Virus record (IMG/VR): IMGVR_UViG_3300028372_000002
Coordinates: 34,617-98,616 of that record
Direction: 5' to 3' (one strand)
DNA: 64,000 nt
DNA from: a virus
The notes below the pieces were generated by a model. That model was given only the letters and a program-made list of their open reading frames with translations, made no database searches and was not told the origin of the DNA. The first letter of the stretch is position 1; each line of letters opens with the position of its first letter. This document shows, piece by piece, positions 43,185 to 56,969 of this stretch. The position numbers and the translations under genes are program-made.

Positions 43185-44945
43185 ATGGGACGAATTCAAA
43201 ACGTTTGGAAGCAGGTAAAGGACTTCTTCCAAAAAGACTCGGAGGACATCCGGCAAATCAACAAGGTCCGCTTCCCCCATATGCTTGACAGCCCTTTTAT
43301 GTCAGATCAAGGGTCGATGTCTGACGCTTATGGGGAACAGGTGAGAATCCATCAGGATCTAATCCATAGGTTCAGAGATTATGAACAAATGGATGATTAT
43401 CCGGAGGTCGCCAGTGCATTTGACATATACGCAGATGAGGCAACTCAGCCGGACTTTATTCGAAAAGCTCAGGTCTGGGTCGAGTCGGACAATGACAACG
43501 TCAACGCCGACCTAAATTATGTTCTACACCATCAACTAAAGGTTCAAGATTGGGCGTGGGAGGCGACGCGCTATCTGTGCAAGTACGGAAACGACTACGA
43601 GCGTATATTCGTCAATGAAAACGGAGTGGTAGCTACACAGCCTCTACCGGTTGCGTCGACGAGGCGAGTGCATGATGAGATGGGAGAGCTTGCCGGTTTT
43701 GTTGTTTCTCACCGGTACGCCAACCCGGGTGTGACGACAAGCCAGTTCCGTGGCCTTATCAACCAGAGGGACTCTGGCCATTTCAACAGGGACTTCAGGG
43801 CAACGCGAGGTGCAGGTGACCTCATGGCCTTCGAGAATTGGGAGGTGTCTCACTTTAGGATCGTCGGCAAGAACCGCATGAGCAGGTACGGCTATGGGGT
43901 TGCTGAGAGCGCCAGATGGCCGTTTAAGCGCCTCACCATGATGGAAGACGCGGCCGTGGTTCACAAGCTGACGAGAGCGCCTTCTAGGTATGCATTTTAC
44001 GTGGACACCGGGGAGATGCCGCCACAGCAGGCCATGCAGCAGGTCCGTAAAGTCCGCGACATGTACAAGAAGCAGCGTATCGTCAACCCAAAGACGAACA
44101 AGCTAGACACTACCTTCAACCCGCTTGCGATTGATGAAGACCTCTTCATCCCGGTTCACAGGGAGCGTGGAGAGCAGGTTCGAGTAGATACGCTTCAGGG
44201 TTCCGGATACCAGTCGATGGAAGATGTCGACTACTTTCGGAAAAAGCTAGGTCGTGCGCTAAAAATCCCAAGTTTCGCTCAGGACGATCAGGCTCAAAGA
44301 CAGCCCCTCAGTTTCGAGGACATTCGTTTTGCCTCGGCGATTATGCGCATTCAAGCTGCGATGACCCAAGGTTTCCGAAAGATCTTGGACGTGCACTTGA
44401 TTGCGACCGGCAGGAGCCCATCAGATTTCCCCTACAAGGTTATGATGACGGTGCCTTCAGCCATCCTTGAGTTGGCTAGAATTGAGGTAATGAGCGCCAA
44501 GAGTGACTTCATGAGCAGAATGCAGGAGCACGTAAGCGTCCGCTGGATGCTGGTGAATCTGTTTGGCTTCAGTGAGCAAGAGTCCGTCAACTTGATGGTC
44601 ATGCGCGAGGAAGAACGTGATATGTCTTCGGCCGCACAGACGGAGAGGGAAGTCCAGCGTGAGAAGCTGATGAATAAGCTAAGGGAATCGAAGAACCTCA
44701 GTGAGGCAGAAATTAAGCGCGTTGAGAAAAGGCTTCAAGCCGAGGACGGCCGCGAGAGACTCAAAGAAATGCACGGATCCAAGGGCGTCTCCGAACAGGC
44801 TTACTTCGCAGGGAGGAACGATCTAGATCCAACGAGAGTAATCGAGGATATGCAGAGGCGAGACCCGGAGCTGTTCAATCGACTTAACCAGCTCAGACAA
44901 ATGCTAGAAGAGATCAGGGCACACAGCGCCTTCAGGAGGGGATGA
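43185..44945 (+). CDS. Portal protein, T4 gp20-like
   Basis: 586 residues. The central blocks DDYPEVASAFDIYADEAT, WEATRYLCKYGNDYER, NPLAIDEDLFIPVHRERG and the DVDYFRKKLGRALKIP helix are those of gp20-type portals, which form the twelve-subunit ring at the packaging vertex. It starts six bases after the terminase stop. The C-terminal 80 residues are a charged helical extension. Confidence 0.9.
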   Translation: MGRIQNVWKQVKDFFQKDSEDIRQINKVRFPHMLDSPFMSDQGSMSDAYGEQVRIHQDLIHRFRDYEQMDDYPEVASAFDIYADEATQPDFIRKAQVWVESDNDNVNADLNYVLHHQLKVQDWAWEATRYLCKYGNDYERIFVNENGVVATQPLPVASTRRVHDEMGELAGFVVSHRYANPGVTTSQFRGLINQRDSGHFNRDFRATRGAGDLMAFENWEVSHFRIVGKNRMSRYGYGVAESARWPFKRLTMMEDAAVVHKLTRAPSRYAFYVDTGEMPPQQAMQQVRKVRDMYKKQRIVNPKTNKLDTTFNPLAIDEDLFIPVHRERGEQVRVDTLQGSGYQSMEDVDYFRKKLGRALKIPSFAQDDQAQRQPLSFEDIRFASAIMRIQAAMTQGFRKILDVHLIATGRSPSDFPYKVMMTVPSAILELARIEVMSAKSDFMSRMQEHVSVRWMLVNLFGFSEQESVNLMVMREEERDMSSAAQTEREVQREKLMNKLRESKNLSEAEIKRVEKRLQAEDGRERLKEMHGSKGVSEQAYFAGRNDLDPTRVIEDMQRRDPELFNRLNQLRQMLEEIRAHSAFRRG

Positions 44946-45781
44946 TGAACAAAGACGAGAAGCACATCATACCAAGCAGGCTCGATAAGCTAATGGAGGG
45001 CCGCCTTGAGGACTTTTTATCGCGTGTTGAAGAAAGCGTATATCTGCAAGGTAATGAGATTGGCTCAGACTTGAGAGTCATTGGGACATTCTTAGATCAC
45101 GCGTTGGTATGTACCGAGGACAATCGCGTGTTTCGCCTCGGTCTAGGCTCTGATGGTGAAGTCGCCTCGGTTCAGGAGCAAGACCAGTCGGTATTATTTG
45201 GTGGGTCGAAAGAGTTTTCGAGAGAGATATTAGAGCGTTTGGAGAGTCTGTCCTCTCAAGTGGACTCTGATCCGGAGGCTCTACGGGAGTACAGCAGGCT
45301 GATCGTCAGTGAAGAGCGACGATGGTTCTTTGACGCTCTCTTGAGCGAGGTTGAGGATCTTATGTCAGAGTACCGCAAGTGGAAGACACTTGCCTCTGAG
45401 GTGAGTCGCTCCATGCTTGCTGAGGCTATGGAGTCCCTTCCTCACGACCCTCACCTTCAAGAGGAACGAGAAGCCATACAAAATGCTTCAGCGTACCGTG
45501 ACTGGAAGGCCGTCTTAGAGTCTCTATCAAAAACAGCATATAACTTGATTCCGGAAGATACTTGCGAAATTCTTGAATCTAAGTCGGAGTACGCCGACGC
45601 TTATTCCGAGTTACGGTCTGATGTGATGCGTGTAGAGCAAGTCCTTTCTTCGGTTAGTCGTTTCGCTCGATTCGCACCATCAGATCAACTTAGTCTATTA
45701 AGCGAGCGAACACGTAATGCGCTCACAGAAATTTCCAGAGCGCGTGTGGCGATAGGAGTCAACACCCATGAGTCAAGATAA
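44942..45781 (+). CDS. Hypothetical head-region protein, 279 aa
   Basis: It overlaps the portal gene by ATGA. The first 80 residues include a small beta unit (DLRVIGTFLDHALVC), the rest is long charged helices. No family is recognised. Between portal and protease, T4 has the prohead core genes 67 and 68, so a core or connector role is plausible. Confidence 0.5.
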   Translation: MMNKDEKHIIPSRLDKLMEGRLEDFLSRVEESVYLQGNEIGSDLRVIGTFLDHALVCTEDNRVFRLGLGSDGEVASVQEQDQSVLFGGSKEFSREILERLESLSSQVDSDPEALREYSRLIVSEERRWFFDALLSEVEDLMSEYRKWKTLASEVSRSMLAEAMESLPHDPHLQEEREAIQNASAYRDWKAVLESLSKTAYNLIPEDTCEILESKSEYADAYSELRSDVMRVEQVLSSVSRFARFAPSDQLSLLSERTRNALTEISRARVAIGVNTHESR

Positions 45782-46931
45782 TCTGAAAGAGCAGATCGGC
45801 ATTACCTTCGGTGATCTGTTGAATAACAGTCTGGCTATCAATAGCCATCTCAGCAAGATCAAAGAATCCGAGGACAAGTCGAAAGGCAAGTCCAAAAAGG
45901 ATGAAAAGGATGAAGAGGAAGGCGAAGAGCAGCAGGAGGCCATTGCCGCTGTAGCCAAACCTCTTAAACCTGTCTCTGATCCCCCTGCGTCTAAGACCGT
46001 AGGAACCAAGGGTCAGGAAGGCTCTCCCGGTGGTCACGAGGGTCAGTACGACAGCGAGGACGGCGAGGAAGGCGATGTTGATCACCCGGAGCAGTACGGA
46101 GACTACGAAGGTCTAGATACTCCAGATCCGGACAATCCATCCTATGAAAGCCGCACTGCTATCGATGACTACATTGATTTGTGGCATGAAAGCAAGGACG
46201 AGGAAGAGGAAGAGGAAGACGACGATGATGATGACGATGATGATGACGACGAGGTAGAAGAGTCGTTTGATTACGGCTTTGACGATGACCTTGTCGAAGA
46301 CACTCTCGAAATCAGCATTCAGGAAGCCTACAGTTTTCTGGCTGAGTGCTATGACCTCGGCATCATCGATGATGACCCCGACTTCTTGGATGAAGATGAG
46401 ATCCTAGAAGCCACAAAGACAGTTCGAAGAGTGGTCGGCGGATCTGTCAAAAAGGTCAAACAGAAAAAGTACACCGCCAAGCAGAAGCGAAAAGCGCGTA
46501 CCAGATACAAGAAGAATAAGAGCAAGATCAAGCGCCAACGCAAGAAGCGGAACAAGAAGTCCTCGACTAAGCGACGAAAGAAGAAGCTCAGCCGAAAGGA
46601 GTCGCGTCGTGTCGTCCGAAGAAAGGATGACGTATTGGCTGAAGGTGACGACCTAGAAGAGTCTCGATTCGACTCTCGACCTCGAAGTGAGATCACCACG
46701 GTGAAACCGCTTGGTCGCTCTATCGAGGACCTCCGATCCAGCTCGCGAGTTGCCTCTAAGGCAATCCGCATGTCAGAGGACCGGGTTGTATCTGAAAGCC
46801 TTCGCACCTTTGTCGATCATTGTCGAGATCTTATCGATGAGGCTAATGAGGGAAACTTGGACGAGGCGACGTTGGATCGCCTCTCCAATCAGGCCCTGTC
46901 CATCGCCATGGATGCGACATCGAATCTGTAG
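45768..46931 (+). CDS. Polyampholyte prohead core candidate, zero-frame product (387 aa)
   Basis: 387 residues with extreme composition. Residues about 35-170 are acidic, including a run of 11 Asp after a Glu run (GAC/GAT repeats near 46218-46250). Residues about 220-290 are very basic (KQKRKARTRYKKNKSKIKRQ and more). A helical C-terminal part follows. Its place between portal and protease matches the T4 core protein genes. Near its end lies a GGGAAAC slippery site with a stem-loop, and a second frame continues for 119 codons to 47215, so a longer product of 482 residues is possible. It overlaps the upstream gene by 14 bases. Confidence 0.65.
   Translation: MSQDNLKEQIGITFGDLLNNSLAINSHLSKIKESEDKSKGKSKKDEKDEEEGEEQQEAIAAVAKPLKPVSDPPASKTVGTKGQEGSPGGHEGQYDSEDGEEGDVDHPEQYGDYEGLDTPDPDNPSYESRTAIDDYIDLWHESKDEEEEEEDDDDDDDDDDDEVEESFDYGFDDDLVEDTLEISIQEAYSFLAECYDLGIIDDDPDFLDEDEILEATKTVRRVVGGSVKKVKQKKYTAKQKRKARTRYKKNKSKIKRQRKKRNKKSSTKRRKKKLSRKESRRVVRRKDDVLAEGDDLEESRFDSRPRSEITTVKPLGRSIEDLRSSSRVASKAIRMSEDRVVSESLRTFVDHCRDLIDEANEGNLDEATLDRLSNQALSIAMDATSNL
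46850..46888 (+). promoter_or_regulatory. Candidate -1 ribosomal frameshift signal
   Basis: The heptamer GGGAAAC (46850-46856) is in the correct register, G GGA AAC, in the 387-codon frame. Just downstream TTGGA-C-GAGGCGA (46857-46869) pairs with TCGCCTC-TCCAA (46877-46888): five pairs, one bulged C, seven pairs, loop CGTTGGA. The upper stem starts six bases after the heptamer. The -1 frame has a TGA immediately upstream of GGG AAA and no start codon later. Confidence 0.6.
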
Positions 46932-47215
46932 TCGAGCGCATAACCCGGTTTGTCGAAGAGGCCAAAAAGAAGCGAAAAAAAGAGCCTAAGACAGACCGGG
47001 ACCGTGAGGATGAAAAAGAGAAAGGCGGTGGGAAGCGAAAGCGACGCACTGCCTACTCTTCCGGCCGGAGAGAAAAGCTGGGCTTCCGAACGAAACGACC
47101 TTCAGTCCGTAACAAGGTAAAGAAAGCCCTTGGGACCGGCAACAAGAAGAAGACTAGGAAGAGAGTCATCTCTGGCACGCCGCACGCATCGAATCACCGA
47201 TGGCGTAAACACTAG
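46856..47215 (+). CDS. -1 frame basic extension of the core-like protein (119 codons, no start)
   Basis: After the slippery site the -1 frame runs open to TAG at 47213-47215. It contains no ATG, GTG or TTG, so it cannot be translated alone by normal initiation. From about codon 22 it reads as coherent protein: a helix (ESVVERITRFVEEAKKK), then Lys/Arg-rich disorder, ending NHRWRKH. The first 20 codons, which overlap the zero frame, look like a shadow of it. An ancient or recent one-base change near 46929 would also join the frames. Either way this 284-base stretch beyond 46931 is coding. Confidence 0.55.
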   Translation, partial: LGRGDVGSPLQSGPVHRHGCDIESVVERITRFVEEAKKKRKKEPKTDRDREDEKEKGGGKRKRRTAYSSGRREKLGFRTKRPSVRNKVKKALGTGNKKKTRKRVISGTPHASNHRWRKH

Positions 47216-47392: not shown

Positions 47393-49459
47393 ATGTCCCA
47401 CAGAAAAGTTTTACATGACGGCTTCGCTCCGCTGAAGCTGAAAATTCAAGAGAGTACAGGCGACCGCCTGATCGCAACCGGCGAATTTGGCCGATGCGGA
47501 GACCCCACTGCTAACGGCAGGGTCTATCCGCGTAACCTGATGGAGCGTGAAGTCAAGCGCCTGTCGAACAAGCTCGAAGGCAGAGCGCTTTATGGGGAGC
47601 TGGACCATCCTGATGATGGCAAAACCCTCTTAAAACGAGTCAGCCACATTATCACGGGCCTAACCATCGAAAATGATGGTCGAGTTATTGGCACCCTAGA
47701 GGTCCTTGAGGATACCGAGAACGGACGACAGCTCAAAGGCTTGGTTGAGTCAGGAGTTGCCCTTGGTGTTAGCTCCAGAGGCTTGGGGTCCGTTAAGAAA
47801 ATGAACGGCAAATCTGTGGTTCAAGAGGACTTTCGTCTTCTTACCTACGATGTCGTTGCCGATCCCGCCGTTGCAACAGCACAGCCAGATTACACCCGAG
47901 AAGAAGAAGAGTACGGCGACGAGGGAGAGGTCGTCCTTGCTGCCGAGTCAGATGACGCGGCCAGTAAAGAAGACGCTTCTTCAGAAGCTACCAGCGAGGA
48001 TACCAAAATGGATCTTGATACTTTCAAGGCAGATAATCCTGAGATCGTATCTCAGCTCGAAGAGGACTTCCGAAGTAAAGCTGAGAGCCAAGAGGAACCC
48101 GCTTCCACGGACAGCTTGTCAGAGCGCTTCCAGAAGGAGCTTCAGTCAGCAAGAGAAGAGATTGAGGCAAGATTTGCGGATGGCCTCGAACAGGCTATCG
48201 CTGAGGCCCGAGAGGAAGAGCGCAATAAGCTAGCCAAGAAGGTTTCGGAGTCATCTGGCGAGGCTTCTGTCGAGAAGATTAAGGCGATTGCCGCTGATCT
48301 GGTTACTCCAGACCAAATCTCGGAGAGCCACAAAAAGGAGCTTGGTGCTCTACAGAAGAGTATCTCCGAGCTTAGGTCTGAGACTGAATCAAAGGATCTT
48401 TACATCGAAGAGCTTCAGGATTCCCTTCTGGAGAGTGGGATGGCTTATGCGCTTCTCACACACATGCCACATATCTCTGAAGAGCATCAAGAGCACTTTG
48501 TCGAAATGGTAGGGGACCTATCCACCTACAATACTGTCGAAAGTCTTGAGAAGCGGGCTGATGCTGTCGCCGAGGAATTTAGGCGTACGGGACGATACCT
48601 CGATAGTTCCGCATCTCTCTCTAAGAAGTTGGACGAAGCTCAGGCGAGGGTTGAAGAGGCTGAGGGCACGCAGGAAAGCCTACAACTTAGGCTTGAGGAA
48701 TATGAAAGCGTTCTTCTGGATGCTCAGGATGAAATTACCTCCCTTAGAGAGTCCAATGAAGCCGCAGAATTGGAGCTAGAGTCTCTGGCCGAGGCCCTCG
48801 AAGAATCTGAGGACGAACTAATCGCTGAACGTGCAGAAGTAGATGAGCTTTATGAGCTTCTCGCGGAAGCTGATGAAGAGGTCGAAGAGTATGTCGACAT
48901 GCTCGACGAAGCCAAAGAGGCCATTGCCCAGAGGGAGGTACTCATCGAGCAGCGTGACGACCTAATCATAAAGCAAAGAGACGCCATTAATGAGAGCGAG
49001 AAGATCGTATCCGATCTTCAGGTCCGCCTCGAAGAGACTGAGCTTGATAAATATAGGGTGGAGAGCGCCATCGGGGCACGCAATCCCAATGAGACAATCC
49101 GACAGCTCAAAGAAGCGAATTCCTTCGAAGAGGTAGACAATCTTTTGGAAGGCCGCCGCAGCAACCGAACAGCTAAGCCAGCCCCGGTAGGATCCACAAG
49201 CAACACAGGCGCGGATCCTATTATGGAGGAAAACGTCCGAGACAGCATCATGAGTGTCGTCGAGGGTGAATTCCCTAAGGTCTCTGGGATTATCAAAAAT
49301 GGCTCCGAGGCGGGATTGATCTCAGAAAATGAAAAAAAATTGGAATCTGAAAATTCAAGACCAAACAATGGTCTTCGAAGCAACGGGACAGCTAGCCAAA
49401 AAGCCAGCATCCCGGGAATAGACCCCGCTACGATGAACCGAATTCTGAGCGGAAGTTAA
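47393..49459 (+). CDS. Prohead protease fused to a coiled-coil scaffold
   Basis: 688 residues. Residues about 10-165 match gp21-type prohead proteases: GRVYPRNLMEREVKRL, GELDHPDD with catalytic His72, GVALGVSSRGLGSV with Ser127/128, and EDFRLLTYDVVADPAV. Residues about 170-690 are acidic and almost wholly coiled coil, the character of a scaffold. An ATG at 48008 (residue 206) has GAGGA seven bases upstream and could start a separate scaffold. Residues 337-396 are related to modules in two downstream genes. It would shape the prohead and then cleave core proteins. Confidence 0.85.
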   Translation: MSHRKVLHDGFAPLKLKIQESTGDRLIATGEFGRCGDPTANGRVYPRNLMEREVKRLSNKLEGRALYGELDHPDDGKTLLKRVSHIITGLTIENDGRVIGTLEVLEDTENGRQLKGLVESGVALGVSSRGLGSVKKMNGKSVVQEDFRLLTYDVVADPAVATAQPDYTREEEEYGDEGEVVLAAESDDAASKEDASSEATSEDTKMDLDTFKADNPEIVSQLEEDFRSKAESQEEPASTDSLSERFQKELQSAREEIEARFADGLEQAIAEAREEERNKLAKKVSESSGEASVEKIKAIAADLVTPDQISESHKKELGALQKSISELRSETESKDLYIEELQDSLLESGMAYALLTHMPHISEEHQEHFVEMVGDLSTYNTVESLEKRADAVAEEFRRTGRYLDSSASLSKKLDEAQARVEEAEGTQESLQLRLEEYESVLLDAQDEITSLRESNEAAELELESLAEALEESEDELIAERAEVDELYELLAEADEEVEEYVDMLDEAKEAIAQREVLIEQRDDLIIKQRDAINESEKIVSDLQVRLEETELDKYRVESAIGARNPNETIRQLKEANSFEEVDNLLEGRRSNRTAKPAPVGSTSNTGADPIMEENVRDSIMSVVEGEFPKVSGIIKNGSEAGLISENEKKLESENSRPNNGLRSNGTASQKASIPGIDPATMNRILSGS
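48008..49459 (+). CDS. Possible nested scaffold protein from an internal start
   Basis: In frame within the protease-scaffold gene. The ATG at 48008 follows GAGGA with a seven-base gap and falls exactly at the border between the protease and the coiled coil. It would give a 483-residue scaffold without protease, as lambda Nu3 is made inside gene C. The prediction rests on the ribosome site and domain border only. Confidence 0.4.
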   Translation: MDLDTFKADNPEIVSQLEEDFRSKAESQEEPASTDSLSERFQKELQSAREEIEARFADGLEQAIAEAREEERNKLAKKVSESSGEASVEKIKAIAADLVTPDQISESHKKELGALQKSISELRSETESKDLYIEELQDSLLESGMAYALLTHMPHISEEHQEHFVEMVGDLSTYNTVESLEKRADAVAEEFRRTGRYLDSSASLSKKLDEAQARVEEAEGTQESLQLRLEEYESVLLDAQDEITSLRESNEAAELELESLAEALEESEDELIAERAEVDELYELLAEADEEVEEYVDMLDEAKEAIAQREVLIEQRDDLIIKQRDAINESEKIVSDLQVRLEETELDKYRVESAIGARNPNETIRQLKEANSFEEVDNLLEGRRSNRTAKPAPVGSTSNTGADPIMEENVRDSIMSVVEGEFPKVSGIIKNGSEAGLISENEKKLESENSRPNNGLRSNGTASQKASIPGIDPATMNRILSGS

Positions 49460-49508
49460 ACAACCGATAATGCTCCGTAGGGAGCTTGTCATAGATGGGA
49501 GCAAGACC

Positions 49509-51026
49509 ATGACGTACGAGGCTCGCAGCATGGAGATCCAAGAGGGACAGAACATTCACAACCGAAAGTTTGTGGATAGTCTGGAAGAGAAATGGGATCC
49601 ATATCTTCAGCATATTGATAAGTCGCCGAACCCGTTCGACTATCGTCGAAAAACCACCGCGATGGTGCTGGAAAACACCGTCAAGGAAATGCCGCGTCAA
49701 CTCAAACGCGACTCGATGCTTCAGGAGGCTGACGCCGCGTCGACTACGACCGGCGGAGTTGCCGACTACGCAAGCACGATTTTTCCTGTTCTCATGAGGG
49801 TCTTCCCGAACCTGATCGCACATGAGCTGGTCTCCATCCAGCCAATGGGCGGACCTGTAGGAGCGGTCTTTTACATGGAGTACAAGCATGGCACCAACAA
49901 GGGTGCCACGACTAAGGGCTCCAACCTGATCGAGAACTTCGACGAGAACTACACCTCGTCTGAAGTCACCAACGAGCACATCGCGACCGGTAACGGCTCC
50001 GACTATGGTGGCGCTGGTTCTGCAATGACGGCTTCGCTGTCGTTCGCTCCCGTGTTTCCGCTGAACGCCGGACTTTCTTCTCCGGAATTCAAGGTTGTCA
50101 TTCAGGAAGTTGACGCTTCCGGCAACGTGCAGCAGGAAGCTGTCGACGATGGGTCTGGTGGATTCACTGGAAACATCAGCTCTGGTTCAATCGACTACGA
50201 TACCGGTGCTATCACGAACTTTGTGTTCACGGCCGCGCCGTCGAACACCAACAAGATCGTTGCTTCGTACTTCTACGACATGGAGTCCAACTCCAACGTC
50301 CCGAAGGTCTCGCTCGACGTCTCCGTCAATGAGATCAAGGCGAAGTCTCGCAAGCTCAACGTCATCTGGAGTTCTGAGGCTGCTGACGACCTTCGCGCCC
50401 TGCACGGCATCGAAGGTGAAGCTCAGCTTCTCGCAGGTGTCTCGAACGAGATTGGTCTCGAAATCGATCGTGAGATCCTCAAGGACCTCCGACAGAACGC
50501 CGACACCACTGACACGTTCGACCTCTCGACGCCGCCGACCGGTGTTGCGCAGATCGACTTCCTTCGTGAGCTGATCACCAAGATTCACCAGACTAGCTCC
50601 AAGATTCACAAGAAGTCGAAGCGTGCACAGGCGAACTGGATCGTCACTAGCCCGGAAGTCTCGGCGCTGCTGAACCAGTTCCAAGGCCACAGCGACTACA
50701 CCATGCTTGGATCGGCTCCTGACCGCTCACCCAGCTACGGTGAGATGACCTCCGATTACGGAATCTATCAGGTTGGACTACTGATGGGCCGCATGAAGGT
50801 CTACGTGGATCCTTTCTTCCAGAGCGATGAGCTTCTTCTGGGAATCAAGGGGAAAAACTACCTTGATGCAGGTATGGTATACTCTCCATATGTGCCGCTT
50901 CAGATGACTCAGACCTTCCTCGACCCCGAGGACCAGACCTACAAGAAGGGTCTTCGCACTAGGTACGCGAAGAAGCTTCTTCGTCCGTCGCACTACGGTC
51001 GAATCAAGGTGCTCGGTCTAGCGTAA
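49509..51026 (+). CDS. Major capsid protein, T4 gp23-like
   Basis: 505 residues from the ATG at 49509, which has GGGAG seven bases upstream; an ATG at 49470 lacks one. VLMRVFPNLIAHELVSIQPM and GPVGAVFYMEYKHG are hallmark gp23 blocks, and RKLNVIWSSEAADDLRALHG lies in the core. Between them is an inserted beta unit (DDGSGGFTGNISSGSIDYDT, then TGAITN) that recurs in the sheath. The N-terminal helical region may be removed by the protease, as in T4. It is followed by its own terminator, as expected for the most abundant virion protein. Confidence 0.93.
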   Translation: MTYEARSMEIQEGQNIHNRKFVDSLEEKWDPYLQHIDKSPNPFDYRRKTTAMVLENTVKEMPRQLKRDSMLQEADAASTTTGGVADYASTIFPVLMRVFPNLIAHELVSIQPMGGPVGAVFYMEYKHGTNKGATTKGSNLIENFDENYTSSEVTNEHIATGNGSDYGGAGSAMTASLSFAPVFPLNAGLSSPEFKVVIQEVDASGNVQQEAVDDGSGGFTGNISSGSIDYDTGAITNFVFTAAPSNTNKIVASYFYDMESNSNVPKVSLDVSVNEIKAKSRKLNVIWSSEAADDLRALHGIEGEAQLLAGVSNEIGLEIDREILKDLRQNADTTDTFDLSTPPTGVAQIDFLRELITKIHQTSSKIHKKSKRAQANWIVTSPEVSALLNQFQGHSDYTMLGSAPDRSPSYGEMTSDYGIYQVGLLMGRMKVYVDPFFQSDELLLGIKGKNYLDAGMVYSPYVPLQMTQTFLDPEDQTYKKGLRTRYAKKLLRPSHYGRIKVLGLA

Positions 51027-53855: not shown

Positions 53856-54779
53856 ATGGCTGGTCTCAAAAGTTCTCTCAAAAATATCGCCAAAAGCATC
53901 AAGAAGAAAATCCCCTTTCTTCGCAAAGGACGTCACTCCAAGGGTAAGGAAGTTTCAGTTAAGCCCTTGTTGGCTTATTTCGTCGTCAAGCACCTCGATG
54001 AATCTGGCAAGTCAATCACTAGGTCTGATGTTCAAAAAGCGTTTAGGGAAGCAACTAGGACGCTTCAGACCGCCGGATACATGAGGAAGGGTAAGCATAC
54101 CCTGACTGATGTTGGCATCAAGGCCCTTGAGGCCGTTCGGCTGCGTGATGATTACAACGAGATACAGGATCGGTACGGTGCGATTCTAGCAATGATAAGA
54201 AGTGGGAAGCCCCGAACGTATAGTGAGTCAGATGCACCTATGTCTACCCCACTTCTCATGGAGGCGGGCGCTGACATCTCATCTAGCTCCACGATGGTTG
54301 CCATTTATCCTCCTTCCTACATAGCAGCGAAGGCATCATCTTACGCCGATGAGGAAATACCTGTTGACGATCTCCACGTGACCCTCGTCTATTTAGGGGA
54401 AACTGAACCTAGCGACTTCGACACTGTGGTCAAATGCGTGCAATCGTGTGCGCAGATGCTCGCGCCCGTGCGCGTGCGTGTGGCTGGCTCGGGGTGCTTT
54501 TACAATGATGAAAGCGCTGTGCGTCATTTTCTGATCGATTCTTCTGGGCTTGCTGAGGTGAGACGAAGAATTGCTGAGATGCTTTCTGATAACGGTCTAG
54601 TCACCCCATCTAAGTTTGGCTGGATTCCCCATATGACGCTAGGATACCACAAGGATCGTGAACTCCCCGACGATTGGGAGAAGGCCGCTGATGGTGATTT
54701 TGATGAGTGGCTTTGCGATAATGTCTGGGTTGTGAGGGGGAATGACCACCGTGTGAGAGTTCCCCTTGGAGGTGTATAA
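53856..54779 (+). CDS. 2H phosphoesterase-like protein with N-terminal winged-helix-like domain
   Basis: 307 residues. Two H-x-T motifs, DDLHVTLVYLG (His174/Thr176) and WIPHMTLGY (His259/Thr261), 85 residues apart, define the 2H phosphoesterase (LigT/2'-5' RNA ligase) fold. The N-terminal 110 residues have a basic start and a winged-helix-like part (SVKPLLAYFVVKHLDESG, then REATRTLQTAGYMRKGKH). Known 2H enzymes cleave 2'-5' or cyclic phosphodiesters; phage Acb1 is one that degrades CBASS signal nucleotides. The function here, immune evasion or virion-linked, is unknown. It overlaps the next gene by one base. Confidence 0.75.
   Translation: MAGLKSSLKNIAKSIKKKIPFLRKGRHSKGKEVSVKPLLAYFVVKHLDESGKSITRSDVQKAFREATRTLQTAGYMRKGKHTLTDVGIKALEAVRLRDDYNEIQDRYGAILAMIRSGKPRTYSESDAPMSTPLLMEAGADISSSSTMVAIYPPSYIAAKASSYADEEIPVDDLHVTLVYLGETEPSDFDTVVKCVQSCAQMLAPVRVRVAGSGCFYNDESAVRHFLIDSSGLAEVRRRIAEMLSDNGLVTPSKFGWIPHMTLGYHKDRELPDDWEKAADGDFDEWLCDNVWVVRGNDHRVRVPLGGV
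54438..54453. promoter_or_regulatory. Dispersed dyad, one-base variant inside the 2H gene
   Basis: GTGCAATCGTGTGCGC differs from the copies at 6328 and 10643 at one position, in coding sequence. Confidence 0.3.
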
Positions 54780-55419: not shown

Positions 55420-55809
55420 ATGCCTATAGATGCCAAAAGTGTTGCCGACCTCGTTAAAAACAAGGTCGTATTCGGATGCGCCTCATGCAAGAAGATGCAT
55501 CAAGCGCTTAATAAGGGGATGGCCGGGTGTCAGATTAAAGAGTGCGGGTCTCCTTTGAGCGGAGGTACTTTTGAGCAATACGAAGGTCCTATGTCTCCTG
55601 AGTTCTGGCCCAAAGTCTGCTGGGCTTGTGGCGTGCCATCCGTAAGGGCTTTTCATGTGATTAAATCTGCACGCACATTTGGCGTGTGTGACGAACACAA
55701 TGAGCTTCATAGCGCTGGGTTTTCGAAGGATGAGGTTCTTTTGTTGGGCTCTCCCCCAAAAAATACCCAACACAATTTGATTCAGGCGCTCATTGATGAT
55801 GAAAATTAG
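55420..55809 (+). CDS. Zinc-ribbon-like small protein, 129 aa
   Basis: It has a CASC pair with two later Cys (GCQIKECG) and a second CWAC pair with a CDEH segment, two possible zinc-binding knuckles. No family is recognised. It overlaps no strong signal and sits inside the neck gene cluster. Confidence 0.5.
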   Translation: MPIDAKSVADLVKNKVVFGCASCKKMHQALNKGMAGCQIKECGSPLSGGTFEQYEGPMSPEFWPKVCWACGVPSVRAFHVIKSARTFGVCDEHNELHSAGFSKDEVLLLGSPPKNTQHNLIQALIDDEN

Positions 55810-55837
55810 ATGCGACGGTTATTCTCGTGAGGCTGCT

Positions 55838-56599
55838 ATGTCTTTTGCTGGAGAACACAATTCTGAAATCATCTCCGAGAAGGAGAAGAGTAGCTTTGGT
55901 CGAGACTTGGCAATCAAGACCGCAAAGGCTGCTGCGACAACGGCCGCTATTGCAGGAGCTACCGCAATTGCTGGCACTGCCTCGAAGAGAATTGGCACGA
56001 GCATTGGGGATAAGATAGCTGACTTTGTGACGGGCTCTGGCCGAAAAAGTAATAAGCGACGCGGTAGCCGCCGCAATCGCAAGGATGATGATAGTCGTCG
56101 ACGTCATCGCAATAAGAAAACCAAACGTACCGGTAGGCGCGGGAGAGGAAAAATGAGTAGACGAAACGAGAGTTCATCCGTAGAGGGACAGCTCAGGCAG
56201 CAGAACAAGGAGCTTAAAGAAGCTCTGCGGCAGACTGGCGTAGCTTTGGTCCTCTCCAATCATCTTCCAAAGGTTGAGGAATCTAAGCATCGAAGCTTTG
56301 TATCCTCTCTTCGCTCGTATAACGACTTCGAGAGCATGGTCGAATTCGACGAGTATGTCTCTGGAGAGATTCAGGGCTTCCTCAACGAAGACGAAGATAA
56401 GGCTGACGAAGAGGCTAATGAAGAGCCTGTTGAAGAGTCCGCAGAAGGCTCCGAAGAGAGCACTGTTGAGGAAGGTAAAGATGCTGATGCTGGTGCCCTA
56501 GAAGAGAGTGCACCCGCTCAGCCATCGAATGACCCTCTCGGCCTTCTGGGCGGCGTGAACGGATACATGTACGAGCGGATTGTTTTTCCGAAGGCGTAA
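55838..56599 (+). CDS. Structural-region protein with scaffold-like module, 253 aa
   Basis: The ATG at 55838 has GAGG five bases upstream; the longer frame from 55793 overlaps the previous gene. An Ala-rich segment (AKAAATTAAIAGATAIAGTA) near residues 28-47 is followed by a long Arg/Lys-rich stretch, then a module (LKEALRQTGVALVLSNHLPK, then NDFESMVEFDEYV) that aligns with residues 337-396 of the protease-scaffold protein, and an acidic tail. Probably an internal head or connector protein. Confidence 0.5.
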   Translation: MSFAGEHNSEIISEKEKSSFGRDLAIKTAKAAATTAAIAGATAIAGTASKRIGTSIGDKIADFVTGSGRKSNKRRGSRRNRKDDDSRRRHRNKKTKRTGRRGRGKMSRRNESSSVEGQLRQQNKELKEALRQTGVALVLSNHLPKVEESKHRSFVSSLRSYNDFESMVEFDEYVSGEIQGFLNEDEDKADEEANEEPVEESAEGSEESTVEEGKDADAGALEESAPAQPSNDPLGLLGGVNGYMYERIVFPKA

Positions 56600-56606
56600 G
56601 ACCACA

Positions 56607-56969
56607 ATGAAAGACGTTGAGAGATATTCTGAAGAGGCCGAGCTTAGGGCGGAGAATACTGCGCTAAAGAAGGCGCTTAGGCGTACCAGCATGGCACTTG
56701 CCTTGTCTGAAGCCTTCATGTCTCTCGACGAGAGTCTGCATCATCGACTCGTTGTAAGGTTAGAGCCTCAAGACAGGTTTGAGAGCGTGGATGATTTCCG
56801 ATCTCACGTAAAGTCTGTTGCATCTCGGGTGCTTAGAGAAGATGAGCGCCCACCCTCTCAAATAGAGCAGCCTATTCCGGGAACTCAGAGCGAGGCCGAG
56901 GAACGTCCCTTGGCTCGCTCTGAGCTTTTCGAGCGGCTGTGCCCTTCCCTAACCCATGATCTCGGCTGA
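56607..56969 (+). CDS. Small scaffold-module paralogue, 120 aa
   Basis: Residues about 10-75 (LKKALRRTSMALALSEAFMS, then DRFESVDDFRSHV) align with the module in the preceding gene and in the protease-scaffold. It is nearly all module plus a short tail. The ATG at 56607 is chosen over a TTG at 56580. It overlaps the next gene by 14 bases. Confidence 0.5.
   Translation: MKDVERYSEEAELRAENTALKKALRRTSMALALSEAFMSLDESLHHRLVVRLEPQDRFESVDDFRSHVKSVASRVLREDERPPSQIEQPIPGTQSEAEERPLARSELFERLCPSLTHDLG

Follow-up and report, generated by a model that had tools for sequence, protein, structure and literature searches.

Gene neighbourhood of the core-like gene

The window, a stretch of 64,000 nucleotides, comes from an IMG/VR virus record of 98.6 kb (IMGVR_UViG_3300028372_000002), and its head genes are arranged in the order large terminase, portal, a gene for a 279-aa protein, a core-like gene, head protease and major head protein. 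On the plus strand, the portal gene lies at 43185-44945 (PHROG portal, E 3e-55), the 279-aa gene, with no assigned role, at 44942-45781, the core-like gene (387 aa, frame 0 in what follows) at 45768-46931, the gene for the head maturation protease at 47393-49459 (PHROG protease, E 2e-46) and the gene for the major head protein at 49470-51026 (PHROG major head protein, E 2e-70). The protease has a long coiled C-terminal part, which appears scaffold-like. The first-pass annotation had put the core-like gene between portal and protease, and this holds for the broad position, with the correction that the 279-aa gene separates it from the portal gene. Homologues of the core-like gene were found at the equivalent place in relatives, and at the 27 junctions examined for their neighbours the protease was present at 27, the portal at 24, the head protein at 24 and a relative of the 279-aa gene at 22.

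The core-like protein contains stretches of acidic and of basic residues. Its gene lies between the portal and head protease genes, the position of a T4-type prohead-core gene, and the product is presumed to be an inner prohead-core protein. In the structure model (mean pLDDT 67, modest confidence) its C-terminal helices were placed at residues 304-335, 339-360 and 366-386.

Some further features of these structural regions were recorded. Inteins that include LAGLIDADG or HNH endonuclease parts are present in the portal genes of four relatives (L039:1078-4113, L021:4096-6987, L041:1-3672 and L057:2-2797; Pfam Intein_splicing, E 4e-12 to 4e-20). In the window, a 307-aa ORF with a 2'-5' RNA ligase/LigT-like phosphoesterase domain (PF13563, E 5e-16) lies among the structural genes at 53856-54779. 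Past the gene for the head protein, the overlapping ORFs 55793-56599 and 56580-56969 have a module in common (E 2e-12), and one of them resembles residues 339-385, in the long C-terminal part, of the protease gene product (E 2e-6 in a single comparison); a scaffold-like module that is repeated is possible.

Candidate frameshift signal in the window

The heptamer GGGAAAC was confirmed at 46850-46856 (plus strand, as are all the features below) in the register G GGA AAC, so that, from the coordinates of the ORF, GGA and AAC are codons 362 and 363 of the core-like gene. The -1 frame is closed by a TGA immediately 5' of the heptamer (46847-46849) and is then open from CTT 46856 to a stop ending at 47215. 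This basic tail frame (46856-47215; 119 codons and a stop) contains no ATG, GTG or TTG and has homologues in relatives, among which its best conserved stretch is KRRTAYSSGRRE (47039-47074). Frame 0 ends at TAG 46929-46931. A stem-loop abuts the 3' side of the heptamer (46857-46888, -17.8 kcal/mol) and folds as the first-pass annotation had drawn it; equally stable shuffles were obtained 1 time in 500 in one run and 1 time in 200 in another. For longer stretches of RNA, stability stood out less over 84 nt (z -1.41, 20 of 200 shuffles), and over 75 nt the z value was -2.67. The shifted form of 482 residues that had been proposed is arithmetically correct (363 + 119).

In register, GGGAAAC occurs as a single copy in the 17,087 codons of those plus-strand ORFs in the window that reach 150 aa, and with the background of the other large ORFs of related loci (10 in 190,192 codons) 0.0014 copies would be expected in the 26-codon overlap of the two frames. 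It is also the sole in-register heptamer of the form XXXYYYZ in that overlap before the core stop. The Shine-Dalgarno-like match upstream is weak (-4.9 kcal/mol), and the 0-frame stretch of the overlap past the heptamer is conserved coding sequence. The heptamer lies in a glycine-conserved turn, placed by the model between the predicted helices 339-360 and 366-386, and a shift there would replace the last core-like helix by a 21-residue linker, followed by the tail.

Layout and heptamers in related loci

Relatives were collected from IMG/VR by searches with the tail peptide (the main query), the portal and the head protein; since peptides and not the heptamer were used, the loci were not selected for the heptamer. 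In two of the searches behind the junction set, at least 80 of 138 stretches and 49 of 138 stretches, respectively, were confirmed. A junction was defined as a distinct 120-nt stretch among all fetched loci, so that near relatives are counted apart (for example L002 and L003, which differ slightly), and a start codon as ATG, GTG or TTG in the region from 60 nt upstream of the last base of the core stop to the tail motif.

A short tail, basic and carrying RR[TS]AYxSG, lies in these loci between the core-like gene and the protease. Among at least 76 distinct junctions, the tail lies in the -1 frame at 65, follows the stop in frame 0 at 5, is in the +1 frame at 5, and is cut at 1; L048, cut at a contig end, has GGGAAAC and stands outside the 65. 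Among the matches listed, GGGAAA[ACG] in register before the core stop was found at 47 of the 65 -1 junctions, as GGGAAAC (39), GGGAAAA (7) or GGGAAAG (1), with 0.14 copies of GGGAAAC expected by chance over the 65 and one off-register GGGAAA in the same set. At 38 of the 47 the heptamer abuts the core stop or is separated from it by 3 nt, which gives the core-like protein the C-terminus GN, GNx or, where the heptamer is GGGAAAA, GK. At the other nine the distance to the stop is 15 to 72 nt (the window, L023, L203, L140, L202, L200, L154, L069 and L017), the window heptamer being the farthest, at 72 nt. No start codon was found near the junction at 34 of the 47 heptamer junctions, with a possible start at 13. 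Each of the 10 tails that lie in frame 0 or +1 has a start codon. When 75 tails were clustered at 70% identity, 26 of the 45 clusters had a member with GGGAAA[ACG].

A sequencing or assembly error of one base, which would join or split the frames, had been put forward earlier as an indel near 46929, and the two parts do read smoothly across the stop. Over 17,758 bases, the assembly of a 173-kb IMG/VR contig (L001) differs from the window by 6 substitutions, without any indel, though the two assemblies may share a sample, and the two-frame layout is present at no fewer than 76 distinct junctions. An indel artefact is an unlikely source of the window layout, and an error of this kind is given very little probability indeed.

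The -1-frame tails 3' of the core stop are under strong purifying selection, with a median dN/dS of 0.07 over 35 close pairs, which are non-independent, include 4 with saturated dS and do not include the window. The RNA after the heptamer is more stable at the 47 heptamer junctions (mean z -1.92) than in 179 control stretches (mean z -0.24), a z of -2 being reached by 22 of the 47 and 12 of the 179, respectively. Stability is enriched over the 47 junctions, but stable RNA is absent after the heptamer at several loci (L018, L020, L023 and L069 in an earlier set of 19). L003 and L014 have stable RNA at the tail without a heptamer, so the RNA signal may stem in part from the coding of the tail.

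Judged from these sequences, an uncultivated group of T4-related phages seems to have -1 recoding of the core-like gene as a conserved trait, and -1 frameshifting in the family is regarded as highly probable.

A second motif and separate starts

The 18 -1 junctions without GGGAAA[ACG] comprise 10 with C_CCU_WYY, 3 with a start codon only (L093, L199 and L197) and 5 with neither. C_CCU_WYY was seen in register as CCCTACC, CCCTTTC, CCCTTCT and CCCTATC, with 0.19 expected, the motif having been defined after looking and counted on the same junctions where it was first noticed. Start-less sites of this form without GGGAAA[ACG] are L125:3474, L123:1532, L100:4729, L187:3474, L193:5935, L114:3471, L113:3435, L139:2893 and L151:3438. 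L057, the sister of L069, has no heptamer, keeps CCCTACC and has an ATG. C_CCU_WYY may be a second, bacterial class of -1 shift site. Taken together, 43 of the 48 start-less -1 junctions carry GGGAAA[ACG] or C_CCU_WYY. Three start-less loci (L096, L041 and L169) have other runs near the core stop, L144, also start-less, has CCCGGGC only, far upstream, and L198:5854-5989 is the sole start-less -1 junction at which no slippery motif was recognised.

The occurrence of other runs or of C_CCU_WYY at the same junction in relatives would fit a change of frame near the core stop of the window by another route, for instance slippage of the transcript or a slip of a different kind. As GGGAAAC is the only in-register XXXYYYZ heptamer there, such a route is considered improbable.

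In two more distant relatives, L104:4170-5276 and L105:2885-4132, the profile did not recognise a tail; an in-frame basic stretch closes their core-like proteins and might replace the tail.

Comparison of the window with its nearest relatives

The window was grouped with L003, L014 and L015 (support 100) in a quick tree built from portal, protease and head protein, the inner order being unsure owing to long branches; L093 was found later and is not in the tree. L093 is nearest to the window by head protein (59%), and its tail ATG overlaps the core stop. Its MSEVVARIDAFL resembles IESVVERITRFV of the window, with ATC 46919-46921 in the place of the ATG, by eye, the automatic alignment being a few columns off here. 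All four of these nearest relatives start the tail with an ATG of its own and have no heptamer. In the comparison with homologues suggested by the first-pass annotation, the heptamer and the two-frame layout recur in the family, and the heptamer is missing from the four relatives closest to the window.

The window site is less sure than those of the family because it lies 72 nt before the stop and between the last two helices, and because of the ATG starts in the four nearest relatives. It was probably gained separately; otherwise it would be a match by chance next to a non-AUG start. On the latter account, ribosomes fresh from finishing the core-like gene would start the tail at ATC 46919 as a protein of its own, and the heptamer would be coincidental. 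The ATG of L093 at the matching place, the tail starts of L003, L014 and L015 and the tail model, which opens with a confident helix right at ATC 46919, all speak for such a start. Non-AUG starts are generally weak, no Shine-Dalgarno match was evident by eye before ATC 46919, and the heptamer together with the hairpin would have to be a coincidence, to which the heptamer alone contributes about 0.0014; a start at ATC is accordingly held to be rather unlikely. The ATC where L093 has ATG, by the same reading by eye, would also be expected if the window lineage had lost its tail start by mutation and now made the tail rarely or never. The 119 tail codons contain no stop, the conserved motif is retained, and the tail is identical in the window and L001, their 6 differences falling elsewhere (weak evidence, with two assemblies), so that a lost start has only a slight probability.

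For -1 frameshifting at GGGAAAC in the window itself, a probability of about 0.7 is estimated from the sequence. The proposal of a -1 shift producing a basic-tailed form is thus strongly supported for the family by 47 of 65 junctions, and for the window it is rated as probable only.

Comparison with known systems and databases

The slippery site of lambda G/GT is GGGAAAG. In the tail chaperones of lambda (G/GT) and of the phages KL1 and Colossus, as in the case proposed here, a minority of the molecules of an assembly protein acquire a second domain through a -1 shift of low level; their gene precedes the tape-measure gene, whereas the core-like gene lies between portal and head protease. The position of a tail chaperone does not fit the window gene, which has the portal upstream and the head protease and major head protein downstream. 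For Burkholderia phage KL1 gp18/gp19, GGGAAAC is predicted directly before TGA (PMC3483164), and for the tail-chaperone shift of Caulobacter phage Colossus the predicted site is GGGAAAC (PMC3556154).

Tail chaperones, together with some coat and tail proteins, are the best-known cases of phage frameshifting (PMC5009743), and the same paper covers the head or coat proteins of A2, T3/T7, Listeria A118, A500 and PSA, in which recoding yields a C-terminally extended head protein. In those phages shell (coat) proteins are recoded, unlike the presumed inner-core protein of the window. In the open-access literature, judged by titles, no report of frameshifting in a prohead-core gene was found.

Like the core-like gene, T4 genes 67 and 68 lie between portal (20) and protease (21). 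T4 gp67 ends in an acidic run, and the C-terminus of gp68 is basic; both are inner-core proteins, and gp68 is dispensable, as stated in PMC9958956. T4 gene 68 begins at its own codon, which distinguishes it from the tail frame of the window. Homology of the tail to T4 gp68 was considered and rejected, the hhalign probability against the single gp68 sequence being 0.1 for the tails and 1.3 for the core-like proteins.

In the databases, no match was obtained for three tails by tblastn over 50,697 records of named phages, or for one core-like protein searched likewise, and no tail turned up when eight loci taken from named collections (L079-L081 and L087-L091) were scanned for the motif in their three plus-strand frames. 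Two scans of bacterial and archaeal genomes returned 8 stretches each, none of which was confirmed. There was no match among solved structures at E 1, and none in Pfam for 17 tails or for the window core-like protein. Against PHROGs, two of 17 tails matched one family each (E 0.18-0.23) and 20 core-like proteins gave seven families with one member each (best E 0.004), all taken as chance.

Proposed mechanism and meaning

The DNA itself shows the signal and its register, the conservation of the tail and a layout that recurs in relatives, and from them we infer slippage, its frequency and its purpose as follows. Most ribosomes would stop at TAG 46929-46931 and produce the 387-aa core-like protein. 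A minority would be stalled by the stem-loop at 46857-46888 with GGA in the P site and AAC in the A site, would slip one base back on GGGAAAC and, once re-paired with GGG AAA, continue in the -1 frame as far as 47215, yielding a protein of 482 aa with a basic tail. Slipping and re-pairing of this kind is the mechanism of -1 frameshifting in general. In the favoured role, a fixed minority of tail-bearing core proteins would be built into the prohead core at a low set ratio, and the basic tail would touch the portal, the shell or the DNA before the protease matures the head. The lineages with a tail ATG of their own suggest that a set dose of the tail matters more than the fusion itself.

With somewhat less assurance than for the window signal, we favour on balance a wider picture, in which a large uncultivated T4-related group would routinely recode its prohead-core gene, GGGAAAN, C_CCU_WYY and separate starts would have been repeatedly exchanged at one junction while one basic tail was kept at a set minority dose, and the window would be a fresh, displaced gain beside ATG-using relatives. 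Since many copies of the tail have no start codon, the tail family is probably easily missed by gene calling. If the recoding is real, it would be a conserved recoding of the head core, by which the composition of the core, too, would be set, and the at least 76 junctions would constitute a natural experiment in which frameshifting has been swapped for separate starts.
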